DNA of 64,000 bases from Polytrichum commune (taxonomy: Eukaryota > Streptophyta > Polytrichopsida > Polytrichales > Polytrichaceae), in assembly GCA_950295325.1 (NCBI GenBank), contig OX485805.1, positions 5,642,501 through 5,706,500 on the forward strand. The letters are read 5' to 3'. Below, piece after piece: positions 3,855-61,203 of this stretch. Every line of letters begins with the position of its first letter. Within the stretch, counting starts at the first letter, position 1. The position numbers and the translations under genes were made by a program. Below the pieces are notes generated by a model. It ran no database searches, was not told the origin of the DNA, and worked only from the letters and a program-made list of their open reading frames with translations.

Positions 3855-4461
3855 GGGCCACTTCACACATGAGCCAAGAGTTGTGACCTTTTAATGGTTT
3901 ACGATCCTTGACTCTCATCCAAAGGCCGTACCATGGGTGTTGAGAAAGTCATTTTGTGTAGTCACGGGCCCTCAAGCATAGTGTGAAGTGAGAATGGACC
4001 ATGTTGCGGGACCATTGCATATGATGTTGGCAGAAAAAACGGGGAAGATGTGGTTTAATATAATATGTCTCAAACTCTATTAATTTGAGAGAATTTCTTG
4101 GTGGTGTTTGTATGTCCTGAAATCTATCCTAAAATATGTTATGAAATATGCCCTACAATTTCACCTGAAATTTGTCCTACTGGAATAACATTAAAAAAAA
4201 AATCATGGTCTCCCAAAATTTGCGTCAGGCCCACCTCATGGAGGTGGGTTTGACGAAAATTCCAGGAGACCACGAAACCTTATCCAAAGTCCACCACGTA
4301 GGACTCCACGTATATTTTTCATCCATGAAGTCTTCTTTGAGCATGTAGGCCTTGACCTTCGTGTGTGAAGTGAATTTGGATGGTCTCCGCCCTTTTGACC
4401 ACGAGAGCTCTTAGATTGCAACGGTCACGGGCCTTCAGACTTGTGTGTGTGAAAGTGGGCC
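3855..4461. mobile_element. TAA-flanked MITE of the 'CTTCACAC' group, 607 bp
   Basis: The left end GGGCCACTTCACACATGAGC pairs with a right end reading ...GTGTGTGAAAGTGGGCC. TAA flanks both sides (3852-3854 and 4462-4464). An internal stretch around 4205-4275, with catggtctccc and a gggtttg/aggccc inverted pair, is shared with the copies at 18830 and 62532, so it is a related but diverged family member. No transposase. Confidence 0.8.
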
Positions 4462-4984
4462 TAACTTAGGGGATCAAGTGGGTACGTTGGATGGATGGAT
4501 GAGAGGTGCGTTCACATGCGATCTAACGGAATTCCCCCCTCTCACAAAATCGGTAGTACGGAGTTCCATGGAAAAAGGCAGGTGACCAATCACTCATGTG
4601 TGGATGAATGTAGTGACATCAGCCCAGATGTTTCATCCTTTTGGGGGACATACCCAATGTAGACACGTTGTGAGTGGAGCCCTAGGCCTTTTACAGCACA
4701 TGGGCGACTGTTGACCAAACTTGGAATGGAATAATAATTAAGTATAATAAGCCCCATTCAACACCACGCTCTTGGTACGACCAACTAAGGGAACCCCCCC
4801 CCCCCCACATGCTGGATTCTTGGCAGTGTGATGTCATTGGATGAATGGTTGCTTTCATCCATACCATTCTCCCCCTAACCTTTTCACGGTTTTCCGTCCA
4901 TCTGAGTCCGGCCTTTAGCTTGGTCCCGTCGGCTCGGTCAAGTCATGGGAATTTTGAATTTTAAACGACATGGAGGTATTTGTC

Positions 4985-5869: not shown

Positions 5870-6575
5870 AGGCTTTAGGCTTTAGTGGTGTGGTTGATTA
5901 AAGGATTAAGGGCGTTAAGGGTTAGTTGGATTAAGTAAGTGTGGGTGTGTTAGGTTGAGTGAAGGGGTTCCAGGGCTTTGGTGTTCTAATTAGGGCCTCC
6001 ATGTGTTGGTTTAAGGGTCTAGGGGGGGGGGGGGGGTAATGGATAAGATTTGGCTTGTGGGTTTGATTTGGGTTCGGAGGCAAGGAAACTAGTGTGGAGG
6101 AAAGAAATCAGGATCAGAAGAGGGCGGCGCCGAACAGAGCCCGCAGCTGGGCGCTCTCGAATGAGATTGTTGGTTGCAGTTGGACTGCCAAAGCAATGGC
6201 TGATTGAGTTTAGACTGCCAAAACAAGTTGTTGGTGTAGCTTAGACTGACGAAGCGAGTTGCTGGTTGAGCTTAGACTGCCGAAGCAATTGTTGGTTGAG
6301 CTTGGACTGCCGAAGCGGTTGCTGGTTGCGTTGGGCGCTCTCGAATGAGGTTGCTGGTTGAGCTTAGACTGCCGGAGCTAGACTATTTATGGGAAGGGGC
6401 CGGGGGTACGACGGTTACCTTGTATGGTAGGCTAGCTAATAAGGAAAGGGGGGAAGATTAGACTAGGAATTTGACTCATTAGTGAATTAGCGGGGAGGGG
6501 CCCTAGAGTGTAAGAGAGTAGCATAAGAGAAGAAGCTTTTGGTAGGGAATTGAGAGTTGGTTTGTAAATTAGTGT
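5870..6575. repeat. G-skewed tract with a 30-31 bp minisatellite
   Basis: The + strand is strikingly rich in G and poor in C from about 5870 to 6570, with a poly-G run near 6021-6034. Within it, 6163-6375 holds about seven copies of a 30-31 bp unit built on 'ttgctggttgagcttagact' plus 'gccgaagc'. A longer period is also present: 'gggcgctctcgaatgag' occurs near 6149 and again near 6334. One frame is open across the first units only, and I see no gene. Confidence 0.7.
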
Positions 6576-10270: not shown

Positions 10271-10373
10271 GGGTCAACAAAGCGACAGTGAATGATAAAT
10301 CGATTTCTAGATCCTATTTTGACGATTATAATATTATAGTGGGTCCGATAACTTTACACCCATGAATGTCTAA

Positions 10374-10941
10374 GGGTCTCTTCACACTATGGCTGAAGGT
10401 TGAGAGGCTGTCGATTTCCACCGATCGGATTGCAAGAAACCAAGAATTCCGCCTATCGACTCTCCACACTAGAGGCCAAAGTCCGAAGGCCATCATTCTC
10501 CAATATGCCTACATGGTAGTACTTTTTGACCAAGGTGCCGGACTCTCAAAGGAAGTTTGCGTTGGACATGAATGGAAACCCAAACTATGGTCAAGAGTAT
10601 GTCATTTTTTTCCCATAAATTTTTTAAAAAAACTGACAAGATCTTTGTCGTTAGAATGGAGGGGTTGTTTTGGACATGGAATAAAGTGGGATGCTCCTTC
10701 TTCCTTTGGACTTTGGGCTTGGCCTTTGGAGGCTTCACGCTATGGCCGTCCAAGTCTAGAGGCCCTGGGAGTCCATGGCCAAAGGTTTGGACTTTAGGCT
10801 TGACCTTTGGAGGTTTCACACTATGCCACACCGAATGCTCCAATTCCTATGTTTCCAGCCCACTTCTTTGGACTCTCAACAAAGTTTGGCCATTTAATCC
10901 CACGACCTCTTGATTTGGATGGCCATAGTGTGAAGCGGCCC
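10374..10941. mobile_element. TAA-flanked MITE, 568 bp
   Basis: The left end GGGTCTCTTCACACTATGGC pairs with the right end GCCATAGTGTGAAGCGGCCC. TAA flanks both sides (10371-10373 and 10942-10944). An internal motif 'ggactttgggcttggccttt' is duplicated near 10707 and 10787. Overlapping frames on both strands here (up to 143 aa) are by-products of these repeats and not genes. Confidence 0.85.
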
Positions 10942-19330: not shown

Positions 19331-20924
19331 TTAGGCATTGAACAAGGAACGAGTGTATGGGTTGGTTCGCCCAAATCGAGGGGGCATAATCCTACTCACC
19401 TTATTAATTTGGTGCAAATGTTGGCAAAGATGAATGTAAATGTAGTATATATACATACATACATGCATACATTCGTCATAGAATGGGGGACAGGTGGCAG
19501 GCGCGTGACGCCTCCGTGGCCCAATATTAAACGAGGGGACTCCACGGGCTCTCGCGTCACCGAGATGTCATCAGCCTAGGACGACGGCTGGACCGTCAAG
19601 GCCGGAGTGGCCGTAGAAATGTACCCGCCGCGTAGATTTCAGAAGCGTAAGAGCGGAATCTGGTGCCTCCCGCGAGGCCAACAAAGTCTAGCGCGATCCC
19701 CGCAAGATCGCAACTCGGTCGGTGTGGAGCCACGCTGCAACCAAACCCTCGGAGCTCGCCTCATGGTTCCGAAAACGTGTGCTTAGGGTTCCGGTACTTC
19801 GCTGAAGCAACTGGGGACTGAGATGCCATGGTACTTAAACTTGCCCGATTTTCATGCCCCACGTGGTGCGTAAACATCAGGATTCCGACGCACATCTACA
19901 CAGCCCAGGATCAGCATATTGAAGCGAGGGTTGGATATTGAAACCCTTGCCTGCGGCCACGGAGCGGAGGAGTGGAAATAATCGTGGCTTTGTAAGAGCT
20001 ATACAGGGACTCTTCTCGCGACGTAGGGTCAGGAAGGTTGTTGCCGTTGTCACGGACACCGGGAATTTGGGACGTACAGGTCTGGAAGAGCAGAAGAAAG
20101 TCGGTTTCGCTGTTGTGACGAACATTTTGGGAAGCACTTTGGAAACCCTTTGGCGAGTGGAATTGGATGTGTCTCGTGGACACGGAGATTGTGTAAAGGT
20201 TGCCTGCGTCGTGTGGAAGGGCAGGGCGGGGCGTCTGATTACGGGAGGGCATTCTCGGAATGGGAATCAGGAAGTGGCTGCGGTAGCGGCTGGTTCTTAG
20301 GTGTGCGGGGATAGGAATCGTGTGACCTGATGAATGGATGGATGGATGGAGGCGTGAGACGAGTGATTTGAGCGAGTGATTCTGTCTTCAGGGTAGCCTT
20401 GGCTCAAGGTAAGCTTCAGGGTGCCTTAAATGTGACAGTTTTAGATCTGCCCCCACGTCTCGTAGGATATGAAATACGTCGCAATTAGGGCGATATTAAT
20501 CCGAACCGTGCCCGTAGCCAATTTCTTCCTAATTTTCGGAGCTCACATGAAAATCGTGTTCATTGTCAAAGTGAAGATTCTCTTTCTTATTAAATGATCA
20601 TCCAGGCCCCTCCCACCGATTATGTTCTTGACTATTGAGCATTCTAGAATTACTAACAAAACTTGAACACGTAGTGCAATCTCTTTTGAAAACATGTGTT
20701 TTTGGTGTCTGTTCTTAGGTCCACTTAACCACACACCGCTCAGATATACGTGTTCTTATTGGGTTATTGCAGCGAAGACATTTACCGCCAACATGGACGC
20801 AATTGTGGAGTGTACCCCGAGGGTTGCTGGAGTTAGTGGCTGTTTTGGGGACTTCAGTAGTCATCGCTGAAGGTTTTCCCCATAGGTAGCAGTTCTAGAG
20901 ATTGTGGGTGAGAAGTAGTTCAAG
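19331..20924 (+). promoter_or_regulatory. 5' region of the F-box receptor gene, with probable 5'UTR intron and uORF
   Basis: This stretch is GC-richer than the flanking spacers from about 19490. A consensus donor (caag|gtaagc, intron from 20409) and acceptor (attgcag, ending 20772) suggest a 5'UTR intron that would contain dispersed repeat A (20525-20750). After the acceptor, an ATG at 20793 opens a 25-codon frame ending with TGA at 20868-20870, ahead of the main ATG at 20925. Such a uORF could lower translation. The transcription start cannot be placed. A + strand frame of 120 codons at 19938-20300 has no recognisable domain. Confidence 0.45.
20525..20750 (+). repeat. Dispersed repeat A, copy 2 (inside the leader of the F-box gene)
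   Basis: Shares 'gtgaagattctc', 'cattctagaatta', 'aacatgtgtttttggtgt' and 'cacacaccgctcaga' with the other copies. It lies between the putative 5'UTR splice sites of the downstream gene. Confidence 0.65.
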
Positions 20925-23900
20925 ATGTGTGCACGAAGGAAAGCCAAGACGGCGCAGGAGTACGCTGGCTTGTTGATGTTCCCGGACGAAATTCTGGAGA
21001 AGGTGATCGAGTCCTTGCCACTGCCAGCCGATCGAAATGCGGTGTCTCTTGTTTGCAGAAGGTTAAACTATCTGGAGGGGATCACACGGAAGGTGGTGTT
21101 GGTGTCAAACTGTTACGCTATCCGGCCTTCCACACTTGTATCACGGTTTCCTAATGCGTGTTCCATCACCATCAAAGGGAAACCCAGAATCGTTGACTTC
21201 TCTCTTATCCCACATGCGGAGATTTGGGGAGCATATGCCACTCCTTGGGTGGATGTGATCACAAAGTATTACCAACCCATCAGGCACTTGAAAATGAAGC
21301 GGATGACCATAACCGATGAAGAGATTGAGCAATTGGTGAGTGTGTGTGGTGGGAGCTTGCGGATGTTGGAGCTGGAGAAGTGTTCTGGATTCACCACCAG
21401 AGGGCTTGAGAGTATCGCTCGCGCATGCAGGTATTAATGGCCAAAAGACATTCTCAAAATCTCATACCATGTTTTCATAACTTGCCATGGTCGTGTATAA
21501 CAAGAAGTGGAGGTGTGCGTAACACATGAGCTGTGGGAGTGACAAAAGTGGGTTTTGTAACAAAGAGGAAAGGAACCCCCTTGTTGAGATTTTAATTGAA
21601 AATGTTCAACAAGTCATATTTTTTTAATCTCTCTGATGGCATGTTGACCTCTTGTTCTTGTGATACGAGTCACTAGATAACCACATCTTCACAGCTCCTT
21701 TTAACAGTCGAATGTCCTATTTTGCAAGGAGTCCTCTAGGGTTGGACATAAATATTAATGACTTGATGCTACGCAAAAAAGAGATGATCACATTGTTGAT
21801 GTACTGAGAATCTACCAGCTTATCTGAAGCTGATGAAGGCGAAGACTTGATTGATTGAAGTTGCAGATGAAGATATTTTGATGTTGATATTACATCATGT
21901 TCATGTTATTTACATAAATTCAGAGTGGTTCAGTTATGTTGACATAACATGTGGTTCACGCAACATGTTAAAATGGACATATCTTGTTAAAATGGATATT
22001 GATTTAACTACTTCAAGATGAACATGATGTCACTAACATCTACATGATCAACATATTGAAGTATATCTCCTCGCATGAAGTTGTGCATGATAACTTCGCT
22101 TAACTTGCAGGAGAAATGGTCTCCTTCTACCTGAATAAGATGCAGGACAATGTTTTTATATCAATATCTAAAAGACAAGACAAGTTGAATTTGTGTTAGG
22201 TTGTTGGCTGACTTGAATGCCTATTGCTGTGCAGGAACTTAGTCACTCTGAATCTTTCAGAAGCAGACATTCAGAACCAGAACCAGGGGCCTTGTCGCTG
22301 GCTACCTACTTTGGCAAAGACAGCAAAGTCACTTCAAGTCTTAGATCTGTCGCTCACAGAACTGGAGGATGCTGATCAAGCAGTGCTTGCAGATCTAGCC
22401 AGTCGCTGCCATACTCTGAGGCTATGTCAGGGTCTGAAAATTGGCCATTTTTTGCCTGTAGTTACTGCTGCAGCCAGGACTGTGCGCCACTTTGGCATTG
22501 GGTAAGTCATGGCTTCTTACTGAGTTATGTATCTGCATAACTTCTGGCTAAATCTCTGCTTAAGATTTCTGCGAAGTTTTTAACTCTGTATTCTTACATT
22601 CTTGGTGTACTTTACAGGCTATACTCGCAAAATATTGAGAATCCTGATGAGATTGCGGAGGCTTTTGGAAAGTGCAAAGAACTGGAAGATGTCTCAGGCT
22701 TGTGGGACCTTGATGAAGGGTCAGTAATGATGTTGATGCCGATTGCTGCACGACTGACAAGACTAGACCTTACATATGCTCTTCTTGGGCAGCCTGAGCT
22801 CACTGACCTGTTGAGTGCCTGTGTCAATCTTGAAGATCTTCAGGTATGCATAGAATGTTTGTCAGCTGGATTTAATTTCCCTTGTAGTAACTGAACATGA
22901 AGCAAGTCCACAATCTTTTTCTTCTCTTTTGCACAGCACTGTTTTCCATCATATTATTTGTGCAGCCCTGTAGTGCATACATGTAGCATGTCTAATGTAT
23001 CGTTTTTTGGGTGTTTAGTGTACAGATATCGTTGGAGATCGAGGACTCAGGGAGGTTGGAACCATGTGCACAAAGATGAGAAGACTTGTGGTTCAGCAAG
23101 ATGATTCTGGATTTGTAACACAACATGGTCTTATGGCAGTGGCAAAGGGGTGCCACTACCTTGAGAAGATTATTATATATGCAGCTGACATGACCAATGA
23201 AGCTTTGGAAACTCTTGCAACCAACTGCCCCAATCTGACAGATATCCGCATATGCCTTGTCCAGAAGTACCATGATGCGCACCCTGTAAGTCTGGCTCTC
23301 TGCAAGTTTATTGTCTTAATTGTAGTTTTGTTGGCTCCTTGTGTGCTTGAAGGAATGGGGTGGATTATGCAATTTGTACCTTCTCTTGCATCAGACCTGC
23401 AACACAATATAACTTAGTGCCTAAAGTACGTTGGTATCCATGTGCCAAATCTGAATCTAGGCTTTGCACATGGTTACAGCTAGCTAAGAGAGTCGGCATC
23501 AAGCCAGTCAAGAAGTCAAGCTGCAGTGATTCTTGCTGCAAATTGTGCCTCAGTATCACTTGGCTGTGTTTTTCTTGTTCTTGTTTTGGGTTAAATGCAA
23601 TACTGAATTTGTTTGATTTCATTATGACTGAAAACAGTACTGACTATCTAATAGATGGTCTGATCAAACGAATCAAATACTTATTTTTTGGCTGTATACT
23701 GATCTTGCTTTCATCTGATCCCTGCAGGTTATAGAGCTCGAGGGGGAGTTGAATTCATTGAATCTGGGAGTCAAGGCGCTCATGATGAAGTGTTCCAAGG
23801 CTCGAAGATTGGCCCTCTGTTTCAGCAGATTTGGGCTTTCTAATGTGGTGATTACTGACGAGGGGATGAGCTACATTGGGCAATATGGTCGGAACCTGAA

Positions 23901-24647
23901 CATCATCACTCTCACAAACTGTGGCAGCAGCGATGCAGGTCTTGCTTTTATAGCTGTTGGTTGTGTTAAACTCCAGAAGCTGGAGCTTCGCCATTGTCCA
24001 TTTGGAGACGCAAGTAAGTCTGAGCTAGTAGCTTCTTGGATCTATTGCCAGCATTAGCACTATTATTGGACATGAAAATATTTTGCACGTGGTAAGATAT
24101 CGTAAAGTCTGTCATGAACATTGTGAGTATGACCTTTCTTGACACTCATACGCTTAAGACTGCAGATGTGTTCTTTTGTTATTATCTCTTCTTGGTATGT
24201 GCTGCCCATGTTGTGTTGTGTTTTGCATGTCAGCATGGGGTCTTAAGAGGCCAACCTTCCCTTTTATGGTCAAGTATGTCCTCAATGCACTTACTAATCT
24301 TTGCTTCTTGTGTGAACAATTGTTCAGGTATGCTAGCGCTTGCCATGGGTTGCCCTAGTTTGAAGCACTTGTGGGTGCAAGCCTGCCAAGTGGAGTTGCA
24401 AGGGGTCAGAATGCTGGCCAAGCGTCCCGGCCTCACTGTGGAGGTAGTGAAAGAGAGTTGCAATGATGATGGACCTAGCACACCTTGGCAGCTCATTGCT
24501 TATGGATCAGTAGCACCCCCTCGGGATGATCTCCCTGATAACATTGACCATGTCCATGATGGTTATAATACGCCGTTGAACAGTGAACTATTCTGCTGTC
24601 CTAGCACTGTTACAGAAGCGGGAGAAGCAGGGCAGGGTAACCAGTGA
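20925..24647 (+). CDS. F-box/LRR protein of the TIR1/AFB-COI1 hormone-receptor family
   Basis: Six exons by GT-AG and frame continuity: 20925-21430, 22235-22501, 22618-22843, 23019-23285, 23728-24013 and 24328-24647, giving 623 aa against about 590 for TIR1 and COI1. Residues ~17-56 form the F-box (LMFPDEILEKVIESL, SLVCRR), which would join SKP1 in an SCF ubiquitin ligase. The rest is leucine-rich repeats with family signatures: IKGKPR (84-88), YATPWV, CSGFTTRGL, SGLWD, YIGQY, RHCPFGD and LWVQ. The signatures are mixed. KELEDVSGLWD, RHCPFGD and LTVEV resemble TIR1; Arg88, Tyr387, YIGQY and LWVQ resemble COI1. Pocket positions differ from both, notably Val357 where TIR1 and COI1 have Arg. Orthology is therefore unresolved. 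A third land-plant clade called XFB in some phylogenies is a candidate, and COI1 is the alternative. Start chosen because it is the first ATG in the F-box frame. The gene stands alone. Confidence 0.9.
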
Positions 24648-25925: not shown

Positions 25926-26883
25926 CATCCCACTTGAATCTGGCTCTCCATTTTCTGATGTCTGCAAAGAACTGGTCCAAGGAAGCATGCTGGAACCCAT
26001 GTCTCGTGCACAAAAAAAGTCAAGAGGAAATCGCAAGCATGTGGTGGGATCGAGTTCAGAGCATTCACACCATAACTTAGTGCAAATTTCAAATGCTTTT
26101 GGTCATGCTTCTTTAGTACGAGAAGGGGGACCCACGAGTAAGTAACCAAATTCCTTGGCGTGGAGTGACATATGTACTGTGGGCTCTCACAAATCGTTTC
26201 AAGGGCACGTGGGGTTCGATTGGCAAGCGGGTGACTGCTTATGTCAAACAAGGCAAGCATAGTTTGATTGTTTTGTCACAAAATAATCACGTCTAGAACA
26301 AACTTTGGCACTGATATGTTGTATCCAGTGTCCAGGAAGATTTTTGGGCATAATCGATCAATATCCCAGTGCTGCCAAGTCCAACTGGTTACATGTTGAC
26401 AGTTGCCTTGAAACAAAACACTTTCAAGTTGGGTGCGCATCTCAAATAAAATGTTTGTGCATCTCAAAACAACAATATATGAAACGCCCATCACAAGCTT
26501 GCCCAACACATTGGCCAATGTAACAAAAACCATCCAATGGTCACCAACGTGGTATCTGCAAGTGACACAAAGAGGATAATCAAGTAAATTTGGAAAGCGG
26601 AAGACAAAACCAAGCAAACCTATACTACACCTGCAAAGTTCACTCACACGCCAAATCAAAAATGTTTCTACATGGGTCTCAGATTTAGTATGTGTAATTG
26701 CTTTTATCATCAAAGTTGGGCCTTGTGGTAACATGTCATTTTTAAGAAATTTCCTCCCTAAAATATCTTGCAACAAGATGAGCTAATTAATAGGACTCCC
26801 AAATAAGGTGTAAGACCAAAGCACACCTCATGGTACATATGTAAGTGGAAACCAACCTCATTGCAATGCAACTTTTGTACTTA
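25926..26883. other. Spacer with unrecognised minus-strand frame
   Basis: The longest frame is 166 codons on the minus strand at 26276-26776. It shows no domain, no biased composition and no splice structure, so I do not call it a gene. A ~32 bp string (gaagatttttgggcataatc and following) near 26337 recurs near 35740. Confidence 0.35.
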
Positions 26884-38487: not shown

Positions 38488-38917
38488 CAATCACACCAAA
38501 CTTTCCGTCCGGTTCCAGCCATGAAGTTGTTGGGGATTATGTTGAGAAATATTTCAGATGTTGGCCCACCAGTTTTCACACTATTATAACCATAGATTTT
38601 GACATATGGTGTTAAAAATGGCCGGTGTCATCAACCCCTCATGCCCCGATTGGTTCTAATCATGAAATTGTTGGGGATTATGTTGAGAAATAGATGTTGG
38701 CCCACCACTTTCACACTATTACAGCTCGATGGAGATGCTAACAGGTGGTGCCAAAAGTGGCCGGTGTGATCAACCCCTTATGCCCCGATTGGTTCTAACC
38801 ATGAAATTGTTGGGGATTATGTTGAGAAATAGATGTTGGCCCACCACTTTTCACAATATTACAACTGGATGGAGATGCTAGCAGGTGGCGCCAGAAGTGG
38901 CCGGTGTGATCAACCCT
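38488..38917 (+). repeat. Head-to-tail array of three copies of a short MITE
   Basis: Three units of about 139-153 bp begin near 38488, 38641 and 38780. Each carries 'tgttggggattatgttgaga', 'gatgttggcccacca' and a terminal 'ggccggtgtgatcaaccc'. Units 2 and 3 are closest to each other. Single dispersed relatives at 33470-33610 (reverse) and 35898-36045 show the unit behaves as a mobile repeat that has been locally amplified. Confidence 0.85.
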
Positions 38918-46952: not shown

Positions 46953-49900
46953 ATGATCTTTGAGAAGCAAACCATGGGGAGCCGGAAGGTCGTTGTGTTT
47001 GCTATTTTCCTGCAGGCGCTCTTGTGCTTAATCGAGGAGGCTTCTTCAGTTGGAGTGGTGAGTAAACCAAACCTCGCGCCTTCTTTAAATTCTGGATATT
47101 GTGTATCCAATGCGGCAACCTGCGCACAAGTTCTTTTGGCGTAGATTTACATTGGTAGCTCTGAATCTCTTCCTGCTTCTTTTGCGATCGAGTGATAATA
47201 TGATAAGATTTCAGCCGCTTTGCTCTTCTAGGAATAGAACGCTTGCACAGCCCGAGTTCGTTTGTCTTGCTATTCGACTCTGGTCTTTGCGGATTCAGCG
47301 ATCGCTTTCGCTCTCGTCGTTTGAGTACGACATTTCGTCTTCTTACGAAGCGCTGGTCGCATGGATCGGTCCTTGTACTGTTCCTACATCCAGCTTGGAA
47401 GTACTGGCGAACGAAAAAAAAGCCATACATCTATTTTCCGTGTGGTGTATGGCTTCTCAGAGGAATGTGTCGTTTGTGATCTTCGGCAAGTCAACTTAAT
47501 TCACAGACTCCCAAGCAGTAGAAGAAGAATAGCAGTTTGAGGAAATAATATGATGCGTGTCTTCGTCGCGGTAAAGAGCTTAGTGCCTTCAAGTTAAAGT
47601 AAATTCTTTCAAGGTTCTCGTAAAATAGGATCCGATGTCTGAGTCGAACATCTAAGCAGTGGTGACGAAGGTAGACATTTCCAGTCATGGCTAGAATTAG
47701 ATATATGGATACAGTATCACAACAGGAAGGAATGAAACTGGAATGCTGGGCCGGCGATTACCAGACAAAATGGACAGTTACGAAGGGATCCAAATGCAAC
47801 GAAGCTACAGTCCACGTTGAATAGAATACACAAAGTGCTCATAAATGTCTTTGGTCATGACTGTCATTACACAATTTCCTGTTGCTCTGCAGACCTCGAG
47901 TCCCTGTACATCGGACTTGGATTGCGGACAGGGTCTATACTGTTTTGCGTGTGATGGAGCCTCTTCTGTTTGTACGAACGACCAGGCCACTCCAGTGTCC
48001 TCCTTTTCTCAGGTTTCCATTATGTCACACCAGTAGGCATTTCTTCATTCAAGTGTTCTAAGTTATGTATCTTTGAATGAATGGCAATAGGATACTCTCT
48101 CGTAAAGACTCTCTTGCTGTTCGCACTCTCAAGTACTTGATTTTGCAATCATAAGGTAATAGTGGGTTTTGCCTTCAATTTTGCACAGATAGGAAATAGC
48201 TGAGTCCATCATCTCAAAACAATTTATTTTTATTTTTACGTGATGATTTCATATGGCGCTTTTGCCGGTTGCAGAATTATTCCCTGCCTTTCAATAAATA
48301 CGCTTGGATCACGACGCACAACGCATATGCTATTCAAGGTGAAACGTCTCTTTTAGGCTCGACCATCATCTCAAGCAAGAACCAAGAGGACAGTATAACC
48401 AGCCAGCTCAACGTAAAGCTCTGCACCCTGTTCCTGAATGTATCAATGCTATTTGGCTTTGCAAATGAATATGTGAAGATTTCTGGACGCTTGCATCTTC
48501 CAGACGATCTACACTAATTAGCTTTGATGCATGTCATTGGACATCCTAGGTATGCAATTTGACGTATTTGCCTGTGTCTGGCGAATAAACACTTCGTTGT
48601 ACTTATCTCAAGTGGATTCGTTTATTACTTTCGGAATATCTGTATCTTGAAGCTGCTTACTATTATCGGTTGTGATGTTCACAGAAAGGTGTCAGAGGCC
48701 TTATGCTTGACACCTACGAGTTCATGGGAGATATTTGGCTTTGTCATTCAATCAACGGCGTATGCTACAATTTCACTGCTTTTGTAAGTTTGACCACCTT
48801 TAGGAGAAATTGCCTTTGATCTTTGGCGACCTTGAACTTACGAGGTCAGTGTTAGGAGTCTAGAAACACCGAAGTTATGTGGAACCTTCACTTCTTGTCT
48901 GCAGCGAGATCCAATCTACTTCGCATGTCTCGAAAGCATCTCTTTTGAACCAACCCATCAGGGAAAAAGGGATCGTCAAATTTTAAAGTCTTCTAGATTC
49001 GAACTAACTATTTAATGAAGTTTTTTTGGAATAATTTTCTTAAAAGAATGGTTTGAACGACAGTTAATAAGGTCAAGCAATGAGATCCCAAACCTTCGTA
49101 CATTGGTTAACTCTTCCTGGAAAATTGTATAAACATTACCCACATTAAGATTATTTTTATAAGAAGATTGGCATAAGTCCAAGAAGATTAGAACACCTCG
49201 TACTGAGACCTACGTGCTCTCTTGAATGTCTCAGCGGCCACTCAATGGCACATTGCTCGAGATTGAGGCATTTCTGGCATCAAATCCAACTGAAGTTGTG
49301 ACCATATTTCTGGAAGACTATGTGCACACCTCCGGAGCTCTTACCAACGCTTTCAAAGCTGCAAACCTGACTCAGTACATGTTCCCGTTGGCCAGCATGC
49401 CTACGGATGGAAGTGACTGGCCCACTCTTTCTGCAATGATTGCAAAGAATGAGAGGTTACTGGTCTTTACTTCTGACAAAACTAAACAGGCTGGTGAGGG
49501 CATCGCGTACGAGTGGAACTTTTTTGTCGAAAATCAATGTAAGTTTACAATTCTGTACGTGGAGATACATATCTGGTTATCTGAGAATATATGTTTGGTT
49601 CAAAACTGCATGGCAAGTATCTCATGAGTGCGCAAAATTGACGTGTTGCAATTTCTAACGAGGTCAGGGTTATTCCTCAGCAGTATAAATAGATTATATC
49701 GGAAATTTGGCTATTTTCAAATAACAGCTGAACGTATTATTCACTAAAATTGACACTCGTTCTGGCTGGACTGCAGATGGCTCTTTAGCAAGTACTTGTC
49801 CAAACCGAGCAGAATCTGCTGTCTTGACGGATAAAACCAAATCTCTTTTTCTAGAGAACTACTTTCCCGAAAACCCAAACGAGACAACAGCGTGTCTTGA

Positions 49901-57340: not shown

Positions 57341-57479
57341 TAGTTAGGTTTGAGGAGCTATGATGACCAGAAATAGCCAGTGGTCATCTTGTGATTCGGC
57401 GCTCCCCGCGCCTCACCACAAGATGGCGGACGCTAAAGAACCCCCAACGAGTTTTTATAAAGAAGAGGCGTCATGATAG

Positions 57480-58285
57480 GATGAGGGTTGGGGCCCACAA
57501 CCTGCAACCTTTGGGTTGCCCCCCCAAAAACGTTTTGAACTCAACCAGGAAACGTTGCCCACCCTGTCCAACTTCCATAAAAAAAATGGTGTTTGCATTC
57601 TTGAAGGCTGCCTACTTCACAAAACCCATATCGAGTGGACCTCAACTTCAAGGCCCAAAATCCAATATATGTGTACTTTCACTTAGTAAACAAACACTTG
57701 ATTTAGATTTCATTTTCAAAGTGAAATTGTCAATAAAGTATGTAATTAACTCGGAAGTTAAAGATGTGAAAAAAAAAAAAATACTACTTAGCATTGAGGT
57801 GATAATTTCTATGACTTACCATTTGAAAAGGACCTTTGTCATTTTAAAACCAATCTTCAAATAATTTTATAATTCAAGCGAATGTGCCTAGAAACTTGTA
57901 GAAATTTACTTGTGAAAGGAGAAGACATATAAGACAAATGAACTTAAACTAGCAAATTGTTTGAAGCTCAATTTTAAAATGACATCGACCCTTTCAAATG
58001 GTAAGTCACATAAATTATCACCTCAATGCTAATGCTTTAACTTCCGAGTTTATTACATACTTTATTGACGGTTTCAATCCGGGAATGAAATCCTAATCTA
58101 TTGCGATTAATACACACATTGAATTTTGGGCCTTGAAAGTGCATTCGATATGGGTTTTGTGGACTAGGCGGCCTTCAAGAATGCAAGGACAACCTTTTTT
58201 TTGAACTCGGGCGGGCGGGCAGCGTTTTCGGTCAGGTTCATGGGGCTGCCCGAGGATTACGAGTGGCGGGCCCGGCCCTTATCTT
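57480..58285. mobile_element. Long fold-back element upstream of the TatA gene
   Basis: The left arm (~57480-57860) and right arm (~57940-58285) are reverse complements over more than 300 bp, with a few indels. Paired landmarks include gcattcttgaaggctgcct/aggcggccttcaagaatgc, aaaacccatatcga/tcgatatgggtttt(g), aactcggaagttaaag/ctttaacttccgagtt and cattgaggtgataatt/aattatcacctcaatg. The loop is about 80 bp. Long arms with little interior fit a fold-back or long-TIR MULE derivative. The 157-codon frame at 57391-57864 is in the left arm and is not a gene. Confidence 0.8.
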
Positions 58286-58303
58286 ATGGCGGGACCCATT
58301 CCT

Positions 58304-58310
58304 TATATAG
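58304..58310 (+). promoter_or_regulatory. TATA-like box of the TatA gene
   Basis: TATATAG sits about 190 bp before the ATG and about 20 bp after the end of the fold-back right arm, which allows a leader of about 165 bases. Supported by position and sequence only. Confidence 0.4.
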
Positions 58311-58502
58311 CTCGTTGGGAGCTTTTTAGAGTCCGACCCACAAAGACGATCCGTTGCTATCTTCGGCATCATAGCTCCTCTCACCTGCTACCTAGTTCAT
58401 ATACATCGCCGAAGCGGCAGGAATTCAACTTGCTCAACCAGATTCCAGTTTGTATCGGATTTGCATTTTGGTCTGTTTTAGGGCTTCGAATTCGGTGCGA
58501 AG

Positions 58503-61203
58503 ATGGGAGTGGCAGTGGTGGCAGCGGCAGCTTGCCCGGGATTGAGGACGGCCACAGGTGTGTGTGCCAGCCCTGCTCCGGCCAGGGTTGCGGGGGGAAG
58601 GGTTACCCTACCTTGCGCATTCTTCAGTTCAGGTACTACCTTTTCAAATTTGCAGTTATAGTGAAGTTATTTCGTTGTTTGGGGTAGGAATGTGAGTGCC
58701 AAGGGTTGTGCAACGTGTCCCTCCCTTGTGACTGATGTGCTTTTGCCAAATTTTAAAACGAAGAATCATGTGATAGGAGCATGATGACTCCTCTGCTGTT
58801 GCTCAGAAGTGGGATAAGTATTTAGGGCATGCGATGAGGTAGGTAGTCTGGTCTCTGGCGAAAGAATTTGCCTCAATTGGGATATTGTCTTCGATTTGTG
58901 TACTTTGCAATCTGTATTGCTTTGCATGTGGCCTTCTAATTTGCAGTGAGGATGAGATTATGTGGCTGTTTGGAGGCTGGAATGTGAGTGTAAGAGTTTA
59001 ATAACATCCTTAAGTAGCCTATTTAGGTAATCTGGATAATCTACGAGCGATTAACATTGGGGACATACCTCTTCAACTGAATCTTGGTAGATGGAAGAAG
59101 GTGTTGTTGTCAAGGACCTTAATTCCTCAAAAGGTTTATTCTTGAAGTTAGAAGAGAAAGAGAAGGTCCTTACGCATGCTCAGGAAGCTATGTTGTGGAA
59201 CATGTGCAAAGGGTTTGGCAGGTTTTGTAACCGAGAGTCATGTGATGGGAGGATGACTCCTTTACAGTTGCTGGCCTGAAGTGGGACATCTTAAAATACA
59301 AGGATGAGCGTGTAATGTTGAGTTAGTGTCGATACATACCCTACAGGGTTTATTATCTTTCCAGAGCTAGCTCACTCAACATCTACCTAATGGTTCATGT
59401 TAAAGTGATTCAATTCATGATTCAACCATTTGAGGTTCACAACTATAAAACATAGAGACAAAAGATTAAAATTTCAACTGAATGTTTGCTAGGAATTGAC
59501 TCAGTGTTGATGTATTTTGATGTCATTAAATCAATGTGATTTCAGTGTTGATGATATATGAATTTAGAGGTTTTGTGATAAGTTTATAGGGCATGTGATA
59601 AGGTAGTCTAGTTTCTGGTGAAAAATTCGTGGCTAAAGGACTAAATTCATGCATGACATATTTGATGGTACATCGATCAAAATTACATAAGGGGCGTCTC
59701 GATTGGGTTATTCTCAATGTGTACCCTTTGCAATCTGTATGCTTTCTATGTGGAATGTTTAGAGATTGTGGGACTTTTGGGATTCTCCAGAGAAGCAATC
59801 AAACTGGAGTTCAGAAATTTGAAGGAAATGAACGAGTATGTGGAAGGAGGAGTTTGTCAATTATTTTTCTGAGTTTTCATTTGAGTTACTTGTAATGATC
59901 TGAGAATGGCTTGCGTTCATATGTTATGTAGAGGTGCATTCTTCAAGCTGCAGCGTAGCCTTCAGCGAGGGAAGAAGCATTCTCAATGAAGTGTCAAGGC
60001 CAATCCACAGACGTAGGAGTGAAGGGTTAGCAGTGCGTGGACTTTTTGGACTTGGTGTGCCTGAACTTGCAGTGATTGCTGGTGTAGCTGCTCTCGTTTT
60101 TGGCCCGAAGCAGCTCCCAGCCATTGGCAAAAGTCTTGGCCAGACTGTGAAGAGCTTCCAGCAGGTACACAACAGACATGATTAAGTTTCAGTGATTGCA
60201 TATATCTGATCGATTGAGTCCACTCATAGCATTCTTAAGCATGTGTAAGGACGTTCTCTTTCTATTATAGCTTCAAGAACAAATTCCAAGAATCAAGGTC
60301 CTTGATTACATACATGAATCCCAAGCATAGACAATTGGCAAGCTCTCAGTAGTCAACACCTCATTGTTACCTATTTTTGGACAAAGCCTTCTTCCCTGTG
60401 CCAGATTCAACTTAGTCCTTGCCAAAAAGATATCACCGAGTGTTTACTCCCCAAGATGCTTATCTAGAGAGAACACCTACTACACCACTTAAGAATGCTA
60501 TGCCGTCAATCAAGGGGCATTTACACACAACTACTCGAGTAGTTGTGGTTGTGGTTGTGGTTGTGGTTGATGCCCACTTTCAACCACAGGGACTAGTTTA
60601 TTTCCAATTACACACAAGGTGTAGGTATAACTGAATTAAGTGTTCCTCGTATTGGAGCAATCCATGTTGTGGAGACAAACAAGTTATAGGTTCAATGGGA
60701 AAGTTTGGTTAAGAGTAATTGCCTTATGCAGATCCTCTCCCATGCTCTGGCTCTTGAAATATTCATCCGGTGCCACATAGTAATTACAAATAAAATAGAA
60801 CTAAAGAAATTTAAACTACGACTAGTGCAAGCTCCCAAGAGTGACTAGCCTATAACACAAACCTTCTGCTCACTAGGCATGTTTTTCTTTGAGACTCTGG
60901 GTTGCCAGATTATCATCGTCTATCAACATTGTAAGTTCTGTCTGTGGTTGTGGTTCTGACATTGAATAGGGGGGTTTGTCTTTGAATTTATTCATTGTTT
61001 GCAGTATTATGTCTAGGATTTGAGTTCCTGGTTGTGGTTTCTTGCAGGCTACAAAGGAATTTGAAGCCGAAATCACAAAGTCAAAGGATGAGACTGTGTC
61101 AAAGGTTGAGGGCCAACAAGATGAATCTAGCACGACAGAGTCTGGGACAATAACCTCCACTCCAATTGCAACTCCACCCAAGTCAGAAAAGGAATCTATG
61201 TAG
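58503..61203 (+). CDS. Thylakoid Sec-independent translocase subunit TatA (Tha4)
   Basis: Three exons with matching phases: 58503-58632, 59932-60164 and 61048-61203, giving 172 aa. Residues 1 to ~78 are an Ala/Ser/Arg-rich chloroplast transit peptide (MGVAVVAAAACPGLRTATG...). The mature part starts near VRGLFGLGVPELAVIAG, a single membrane span with the functionally important intramembrane Glu88. It is followed by the FGPKQLPAIGKSLGQTVKSF hinge and amphipathic helix, then a charged, flexible tail (ATKEFEAEI onward). VPEL, FGPK and LPAIGK identify Tha4 and not Hcf106, which has APE and a different helix. TatA oligomers form the passage for folded proteins carrying twin-arginine signals into the thylakoid lumen, using the proton gradient. 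Introns are 1299 and 883 bp. The small exon 1 is easily missed by long-frame searches. Confidence 0.94.
60541..60570. repeat. (GTGGTT)n microsatellite in intron 2 of the TatA gene
   Basis: Five to six copies of a 6 bp unit lie in the middle of intron 2. No effect on coding sequence. Confidence 0.8.

Follow-up and report, generated by a model that had tools for sequence, protein, structure and literature searches.

Does the F-box/LRR protein encoded at positions 20925-24647 (+) of the 64,000-nt stretch of Polytrichum commune DNA analysed here (the window) belong to the TIR1/AFB auxin receptors, to the COI1 jasmonate receptors or to neither of them? A preliminary description of the locus had offered two answers, the third clade (XFB) or a strongly diverged COI1. 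An excerpt of PMC7048394 distinguishes three land-plant families, TIR1/AFB, COI1 and XFB, beside a clade of streptophyte-algal proteins; XFB is said there to occur in "mosses and some lycophytes" and to be of unknown function, with reference to Prigge 2010 and Bowman 2019. According to an excerpt of PMC5873896, 11 of the 12 positions that contact the hormone are occupied in the Coleochaete irregularis homologue by residues that neither receptor has. Among the matches listed from open-licence PMC, of which the others were judged by title, PMC7048394 is the only paper centred on XFB, and later work may have appeared elsewhere.

The gene is intact. Six exons joined at GT-AG junctions yield a spliced product of 623 aa plus stop codon (Table 1), and since the stop-to-stop frame starts at 20919, the methionine at 20925 is the first one possible. 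Pfam found F-box_5 (41.9 bits, cut-off 25.5), Transp_inhibit (53.5 bits, cut-off 33) and LRR_6 (37.8 bits, cut-off 23.4) in this protein, which is the combination of F-box, Transp_inhibit and LRRs that marks the TIR1/COI1-type F-box/LRR superfamily. With the junctions in order, the frame open and the domains above their cut-offs, the F-box/LRR protein proposed earlier for this place can be accepted. Among solved structures, TIR1 (2p1m, 3.7e-99) and COI1 (3ogk, 1.8e-94) matched best and were nearly tied; the remaining three of the five matches were FBXL17 (two) and FBXL2.

Table 1. Exons of the gene, the codon for Val357 and the other family members found in the genome.
Feature	Position	Strand	Content or remark	Basis
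Exon 1	20925..21430	+	F-box aa 19-56, Transp_inhibit aa 76-123; Arg88, Ile89, Phe92, Lys125, Arg126	Spliced translation, Pfam
Exon 2, LRR	22235..22501	+		GT-AG junctions, open frame
Exon 3, LRR	22618..22843	+		GT-AG junctions, open frame
Exon 4, LRR	23019..23285	+	Val357, Ile385, Tyr387, Arg410, Cys412	Acceptor at intron position common to 4 paralogues
Codon GTG = Val357	23088..23090	+	Replaces TIR1 Arg344 / COI1 Arg348	Arg in 6/6 other family members
Exon 5, LRR	23728..24013	+	Ala451, Leu452, Cys453, Ile481, Thr483, Thr485, Asn486, Arg510; acceptor less certain	
Exon 6, last LRRs, C-terminal end, stop codon	24328..24647	+		Spliced translation
L001, TIR1/AFB	C2:24905080 (region C2:24898000-24907000)			
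L002, COI1	C2:4616076 (region C2:4614500-4623500)		Loop intron 4060-4819	
L003, COI1	C1:75570333			
L004, COI1	C4:50819815			

The window holds, besides the exons of this gene, six stop-to-stop frames of at least 140 aa. A Pfam scan of five of them (10366-10797, 26276-26779, 47002-47430, 57367-57864 and 58205-58687), which left out the one at 19911-20387 (-), gave no match, and no Rfam match at gathering score was obtained in the 64,000 nt. Two tandem arrays were seen, one at 38511-38916 (139-base unit, 2.9 copies, 86% matches) and a degenerate one at 6148-6378, whose periods (30, 61 and 92 bases) overlap.

Seven contigs of 77.9, 70.3, 59.2, 59.1, 52.9, 44.7 and 42.1 Mb make up 406.1 of the 407.8 Mb of the assembly, a layout that fits a moss; seven chromosomes point to one of the haircap type. 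The Transp_inhibit profile recognised five places in this genome, and a search with the 623-aa protein returned the same five genes, no nearer paralogue and one further, weak match on C1 (E 1.8e-4); all these family counts are lower bounds. As found, the family consists of one TIR1/AFB gene (L001), three COI1 genes (L002, L003 and L004) and the single-copy gene of the window. The spliced proteins of the four paralogues were built with AtTIR1 or AtCOI1 as guide. L001 is 56.1% identical to AtTIR1, and L002 to L004 are 41.4-45.2% identical to AtCOI1, while the 623-aa protein shares 34.8-39.0% with the six others. L001 retains R344, F380, R403 and S438; the three COI1 paralogues retain, among others, Arg348, Tyr386, Arg409, Tyr444 and Arg496. 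The auxin and jasmonate jobs thus appear to be filled already in this moss.

Some observations concern these other genes. Compared with AtTIR1, L001 has Arg at His78, His at Arg401 and Ser at Met460, and L002 and L004 have an extra phase-0 intron in common (alignment column 147). The Aux/IAA profile PF02309 recognised one place in the genome, again a lower bound (C4:16107855-16108449, two matched stretches, apparently one gene). The tify domain was found at nine places; four of the nine lie within about 85 kb (C1:60825253-60909830), which suggests a local JAZ/TIFY gene cluster.

Comparison of the five genes also bears on the exon boundaries around 23019-23285, on which the preliminary description had made its reading depend. 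Two introns are common to all five genes (alignment columns 170, phase 2, and 357, phase 0). The intron directly 5' of exon 4 is one that all four paralogues share, which backs the boundary at 23019. The junction 23285/23728 is less certain. The intron 23286-23727 was picked by the appearance of its splice sites; a TIR1-guided spliced alignment puts the acceptor at 23749 instead of 23728, and a COI1-guided one uses another donor and acceptor (intron 23259-23736). This part of the gene model is therefore uncertain, but the alternatives fall in the loop after Cys412, so that the residues discussed below are untouched. This intron (phase 0, following aa 422) shares its variable loop with a phase-0 intron of L002, the two being 9 and 8 residues ahead of the next alignable repeat. 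They may be the same intron, and it is possibly ancient and was lost in the other paralogues. The two remaining introns, at column 280 (near aa 258) and column 550 (within aa 518), are matched by none in the four paralogues.

The trees comprise seven sequences (the 623-aa protein, AtTIR1, AtCOI1 and the four paralogues) and are unrooted, without an outgroup. Using 547 columns and LG+C20+F+G4, we obtained the arrangement (AtTIR1, L001), 623-aa protein, (AtCOI1, (L003, (L002, L004))), with support of 100/100 for AtTIR1 and L001 and of 100/99 for AtCOI1 with the three COI1 paralogues; the 623-aa protein lies outside both groups on a long branch. Forcing it together with L002 to L004 costs 17.18 log units (p-AU 0.0033), with AtCOI1 alone 17.18 (p-AU 0.003), with L003 alone 25.34 (p-AU 0.0003) and with L001 alone 69.61, which is likewise rejected. 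The 506 gap-free columns under LG+G4 gave the same unrooted tree and a p-AU of 0.0004 for the grouping with the three COI1 paralogues, and the two halves of this gap-free alignment, each taken separately, placed the protein identically (N half 90/92, C half 100/99). Because the tree is unrooted, a sister to all COI1 and a sister to TIR1 look alike in it.

From this placement inside neither the TIR1/AFB nor the COI1 clade, we take the 623-aa protein to represent a third lineage beside the two receptors, as judged from seven sequences. By exclusion, and by its match to the description of the clade, it most likely belongs to XFB, with which it has in common that it forms a third lineage beside TIR1/AFB and COI1 in a moss genome. 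Between the two answers offered at the outset, the trees favour the first.

The description of the pocket as a mosaic of TIR1 and COI1 is a fair one: at the 27 columns that separate the receptor types, the protein is TIR1-like in 6, COI1-like in 13 and like neither in 8, with residues of both kinds interspersed along its length. A lineage that arose close to the split between TIR1 and COI1 would show such a mixture as well. At the 88 columns that are invariant in the other six proteins, 77 are kept and 11 are changed, among them the F-box tryptophan, which is Leu47 here. States unique to the protein occupy 4 of 15 contact columns, taken in part from excerpts of PMC7347570 and PMC5019376, and 15 of 100 columns elsewhere (all conserved within both types), which is no significant enrichment (Fisher p 0.27). 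A specially remodelled pocket is for this reason only suggestive.

We compared the pocket residues with AtTIR1, AtCOI1 and the four paralogues in HMMER and MAFFT alignments. Val357, Ile89, Cys453, Thr483 and Thr485 differ from both receptor types. The loss of the arginine common to both receptors at Val357 was read correctly (Table 1), and as GTG is two base changes away from the nearest arginine codon, it is not explained by a single base-call error. Ile89 does replace TIR1 Phe79, which we take to be a loop 2 residue with a role in the ligand pocket; the position is Phe in both TIR1 types and Ala in all four COI1 types (A86). Cys453 stands where all four COI1 types have Tyr (Tyr444), as had been described, and its equation with TIR1 Ser440 holds in the HMMER alignment, MAFFT leaving a gap in TIR1. 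Thr483 and Thr485 are at TIR1 S462 and A464; on the COI1 side, Ile481 corresponds to Trp467 and Thr483 to Leu469. Ala451 takes the place of TIR1 Ser438, but AtCOI1 and L003 have Ala there too. Agreement with one or both receptors is seen for Arg88, Phe92, Lys125, R126, Y387, R410, C412, E508 and R510, so that the readings of Tyr387 as COI1-like, of Cys412 as TIR1-like (Cys405) and of Arg410 as kept are all borne out.

Other readings went too far. Arg88 does match COI1 Arg85 where TIR1 has His78, but it is no mark of COI1, since the AFB protein L001 also has Arg there. Ile385 is indeed bulkier than COI1 Ala384, but this is hardly an oddity: the position is Ile in L003 and Val in L002 and L004, Ile/Val as in Calohypnum, and Ile is predominant in moss COI1s according to an excerpt of PMC8201998. 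The replacement of COI1 Arg351 by Gln360 has to be dropped, because it concerns an unalignable loop of variable length in which the R351 position is Q, a gap and D in the three COI1 paralogues. Asn486 is less telling, as its counterpart COI1 Tyr472 is Cys in all three of them. The earlier residue readings were thus mostly right and over-interpreted.

Set against the known receptors, the protein shares the F-box/LRR architecture of both. Compared with TIR1/AFB (2p1m to 2p1q, 3c6n to 3c6p), the counterparts of Phe82, Lys113, Arg114, Arg403, Cys405, Leu439 and Glu487 are kept, whereas Phe79 and Phe380 are replaced by Ile and Tyr, Arg344 by Val, Ser438 by Ala, and Ser462 and Ala464 each by Thr. 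An excerpt of PMC5019376 gives R403, S438 and L439 of TIR1 as auxin contacts, S462 and A464 as degron contacts, and residues 113 and 114 as InsP6 contacts. The auxin carboxylate pair Arg403/Ser438 together with Phe79 is therefore incomplete: Arg410 is present, with Ala451 and Ile89 in the other two places. Compared with COI1 (3ogk, 3ogl, 3ogm), the counterparts of Arg85, Phe89, Tyr386, Arg409, Glu494 and Arg496 are kept and the moss-like Ile stands at Ala384, whereas Arg348, Tyr444, Trp467, Leu469 and Ala86 have become Val, Cys, Ile, Thr and Ile. The excerpt of PMC7347570 lists JA-Ile and InsP5 contacts in strawberry numbering, which we renumbered to COI1. Four of the six JA-Ile contacts considered (Arg85, Arg348, Tyr386, Arg409, Tyr444 and Arg496) are retained, Val357 and Cys453 standing at the other two.

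Altered inositol-phosphate binding had also been proposed, and this holds to a small extent. Among the basic positions that we take to form the site, K84, R88, K125, R126, R355, R410, R449, K506 and K530 are kept. Lost are the shared arginine (V357), K79 and R326 on the COI1 side (T82 and T335), and R401 and R484 on the TIR1 side, where D408 and Q505 are also the AtCOI1 states. Apart from V357, the changes thus fall at a few positions where the receptors already differ. In the excerpt of PMC7347570, three COI1 arginines are listed for both JA-Ile and InsP5; two of the three InsP5 arginines are kept here.

How, then, is the protein best explained? We propose, with a probability of about 0.6, that it serves as a substrate receptor in an SCF ligase, that it belongs to the third TIR1/COI1-type lineage (most probably XFB) and that its normal partners are neither IAA/Aux-IAA nor JA-Ile/JAZ. 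A COI1 paralogue that has diverged strongly and yet continues to bind jasmonates of the dinor-OPDA type with JAZ would account for the slightly higher identity to the COI1 types (35.3-39.0%, against 34.8-35.6% to the TIR1 types), for the preponderance of COI1-like over TIR1-like separating columns (13 against 6 of 27) and for Ile385 and Tyr387, which are as in moss COI1. We regard it as quite improbable, and reject it on the AU tests (0.0033 and 0.0004): the protein falls outside the well-supported group of AtCOI1 and the three COI1 paralogues (100/99), all of which paralogues keep the Arg348, Tyr444, Trp467 and Leu469 that it has lost. Gene conversion between genes of the two types might also have produced the mixed residues, but this is scarcely credible and was rejected, because the halves of the alignment agree on the third-lineage position and the TIR1-like and COI1-like states are scattered among each other along the protein. 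A decaying pseudogene is just as remote; the 11 changed invariant columns would fit it, but the six open exons with GT-AG junctions, the Pfam domains above cut-off and the 77 conserved columns led us to reject it.

The main live rival is an F-box protein of the third lineage that needs no small ligand to bind its substrate, its pocket being decayed or filled. V357 would weaken the pocket floor, Ile89 and Ile385 could fill the pocket, and the loops around aa 425-462 carry insertions of 8 and 5 residues compared with COI1. We nevertheless consider it unlikely, since Arg88, Phe92, Lys125, Arg126, Tyr387, Arg410, Glu508 and Arg510 still agree with one or both receptors and the protein looks constrained. 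The reading that we prefer, a receptor with other partners, has its own weak points, namely the Leu47 in place of the F-box Trp, the occurrence of Ala451 in AtCOI1 and L003 as well, the lack of significant contact enrichment for the unique changes, and a long branch in an unrooted tree of seven sequences, the N half giving the weaker support.

If it works as TIR1 and COI1 do, the 623-aa protein would anchor to SKP1/CUL1 in an SCF ligase and hold an inositol phosphate in its LRR solenoid. The pocket above it would take up a small molecule, probably one carrying a carboxylate, as the ligand that would glue a degron onto the protein. With Val357, the protein lacks one of the three arginines that the excerpt of PMC7347570 lists as COI1 contacts of JA-Ile as well as of InsP5, and from this loss we infer another ligand and another substrate. 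Ile89 in loop 2, where the receptors have Phe or Ala, Cys453 for Tyr444, Ala451 for Ser438, and Thr483 and Thr485 at degron-side positions likewise make IAA/Aux-IAA and JA-Ile/JAZ unlikely as normal partners. A ligand other than auxin or jasmonate is plausible from these residues, and the altered ligand pocket suggests that the protein senses something else.

Using 169 and 228 of the 623 aa as pattern queries, by which distant relatives would be missed, we obtained 37 matches in genome_contigs, none of which was confirmed by tblastn, and no match in viral_contigs. These prokaryote and viral collections contain no plants as such and so have no bearing on the distribution of XFB.

The XFB lineage itself was known already. 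What our data most likely add is one more putative member, single-copy and with a readable pocket, and this candidate offers concrete positions (357, 89, 453, 483 and 485) for the study of ligand and substrate. It is a tentative idea, which we hold as possible, that the protein belongs to a third, orphan hormone co-receptor lineage of early land plants, an InsP-loaded SCF receptor joining a small carboxylate and a degron by a pocket without one of the arginines common to the auxin and jasmonate receptors. If this were true, auxin and jasmonate perception would be the two survivors of a three-receptor set in the land-plant ancestor, and the XFB candidate of P. commune would bear on how hormone perception was divided when plants reached land.
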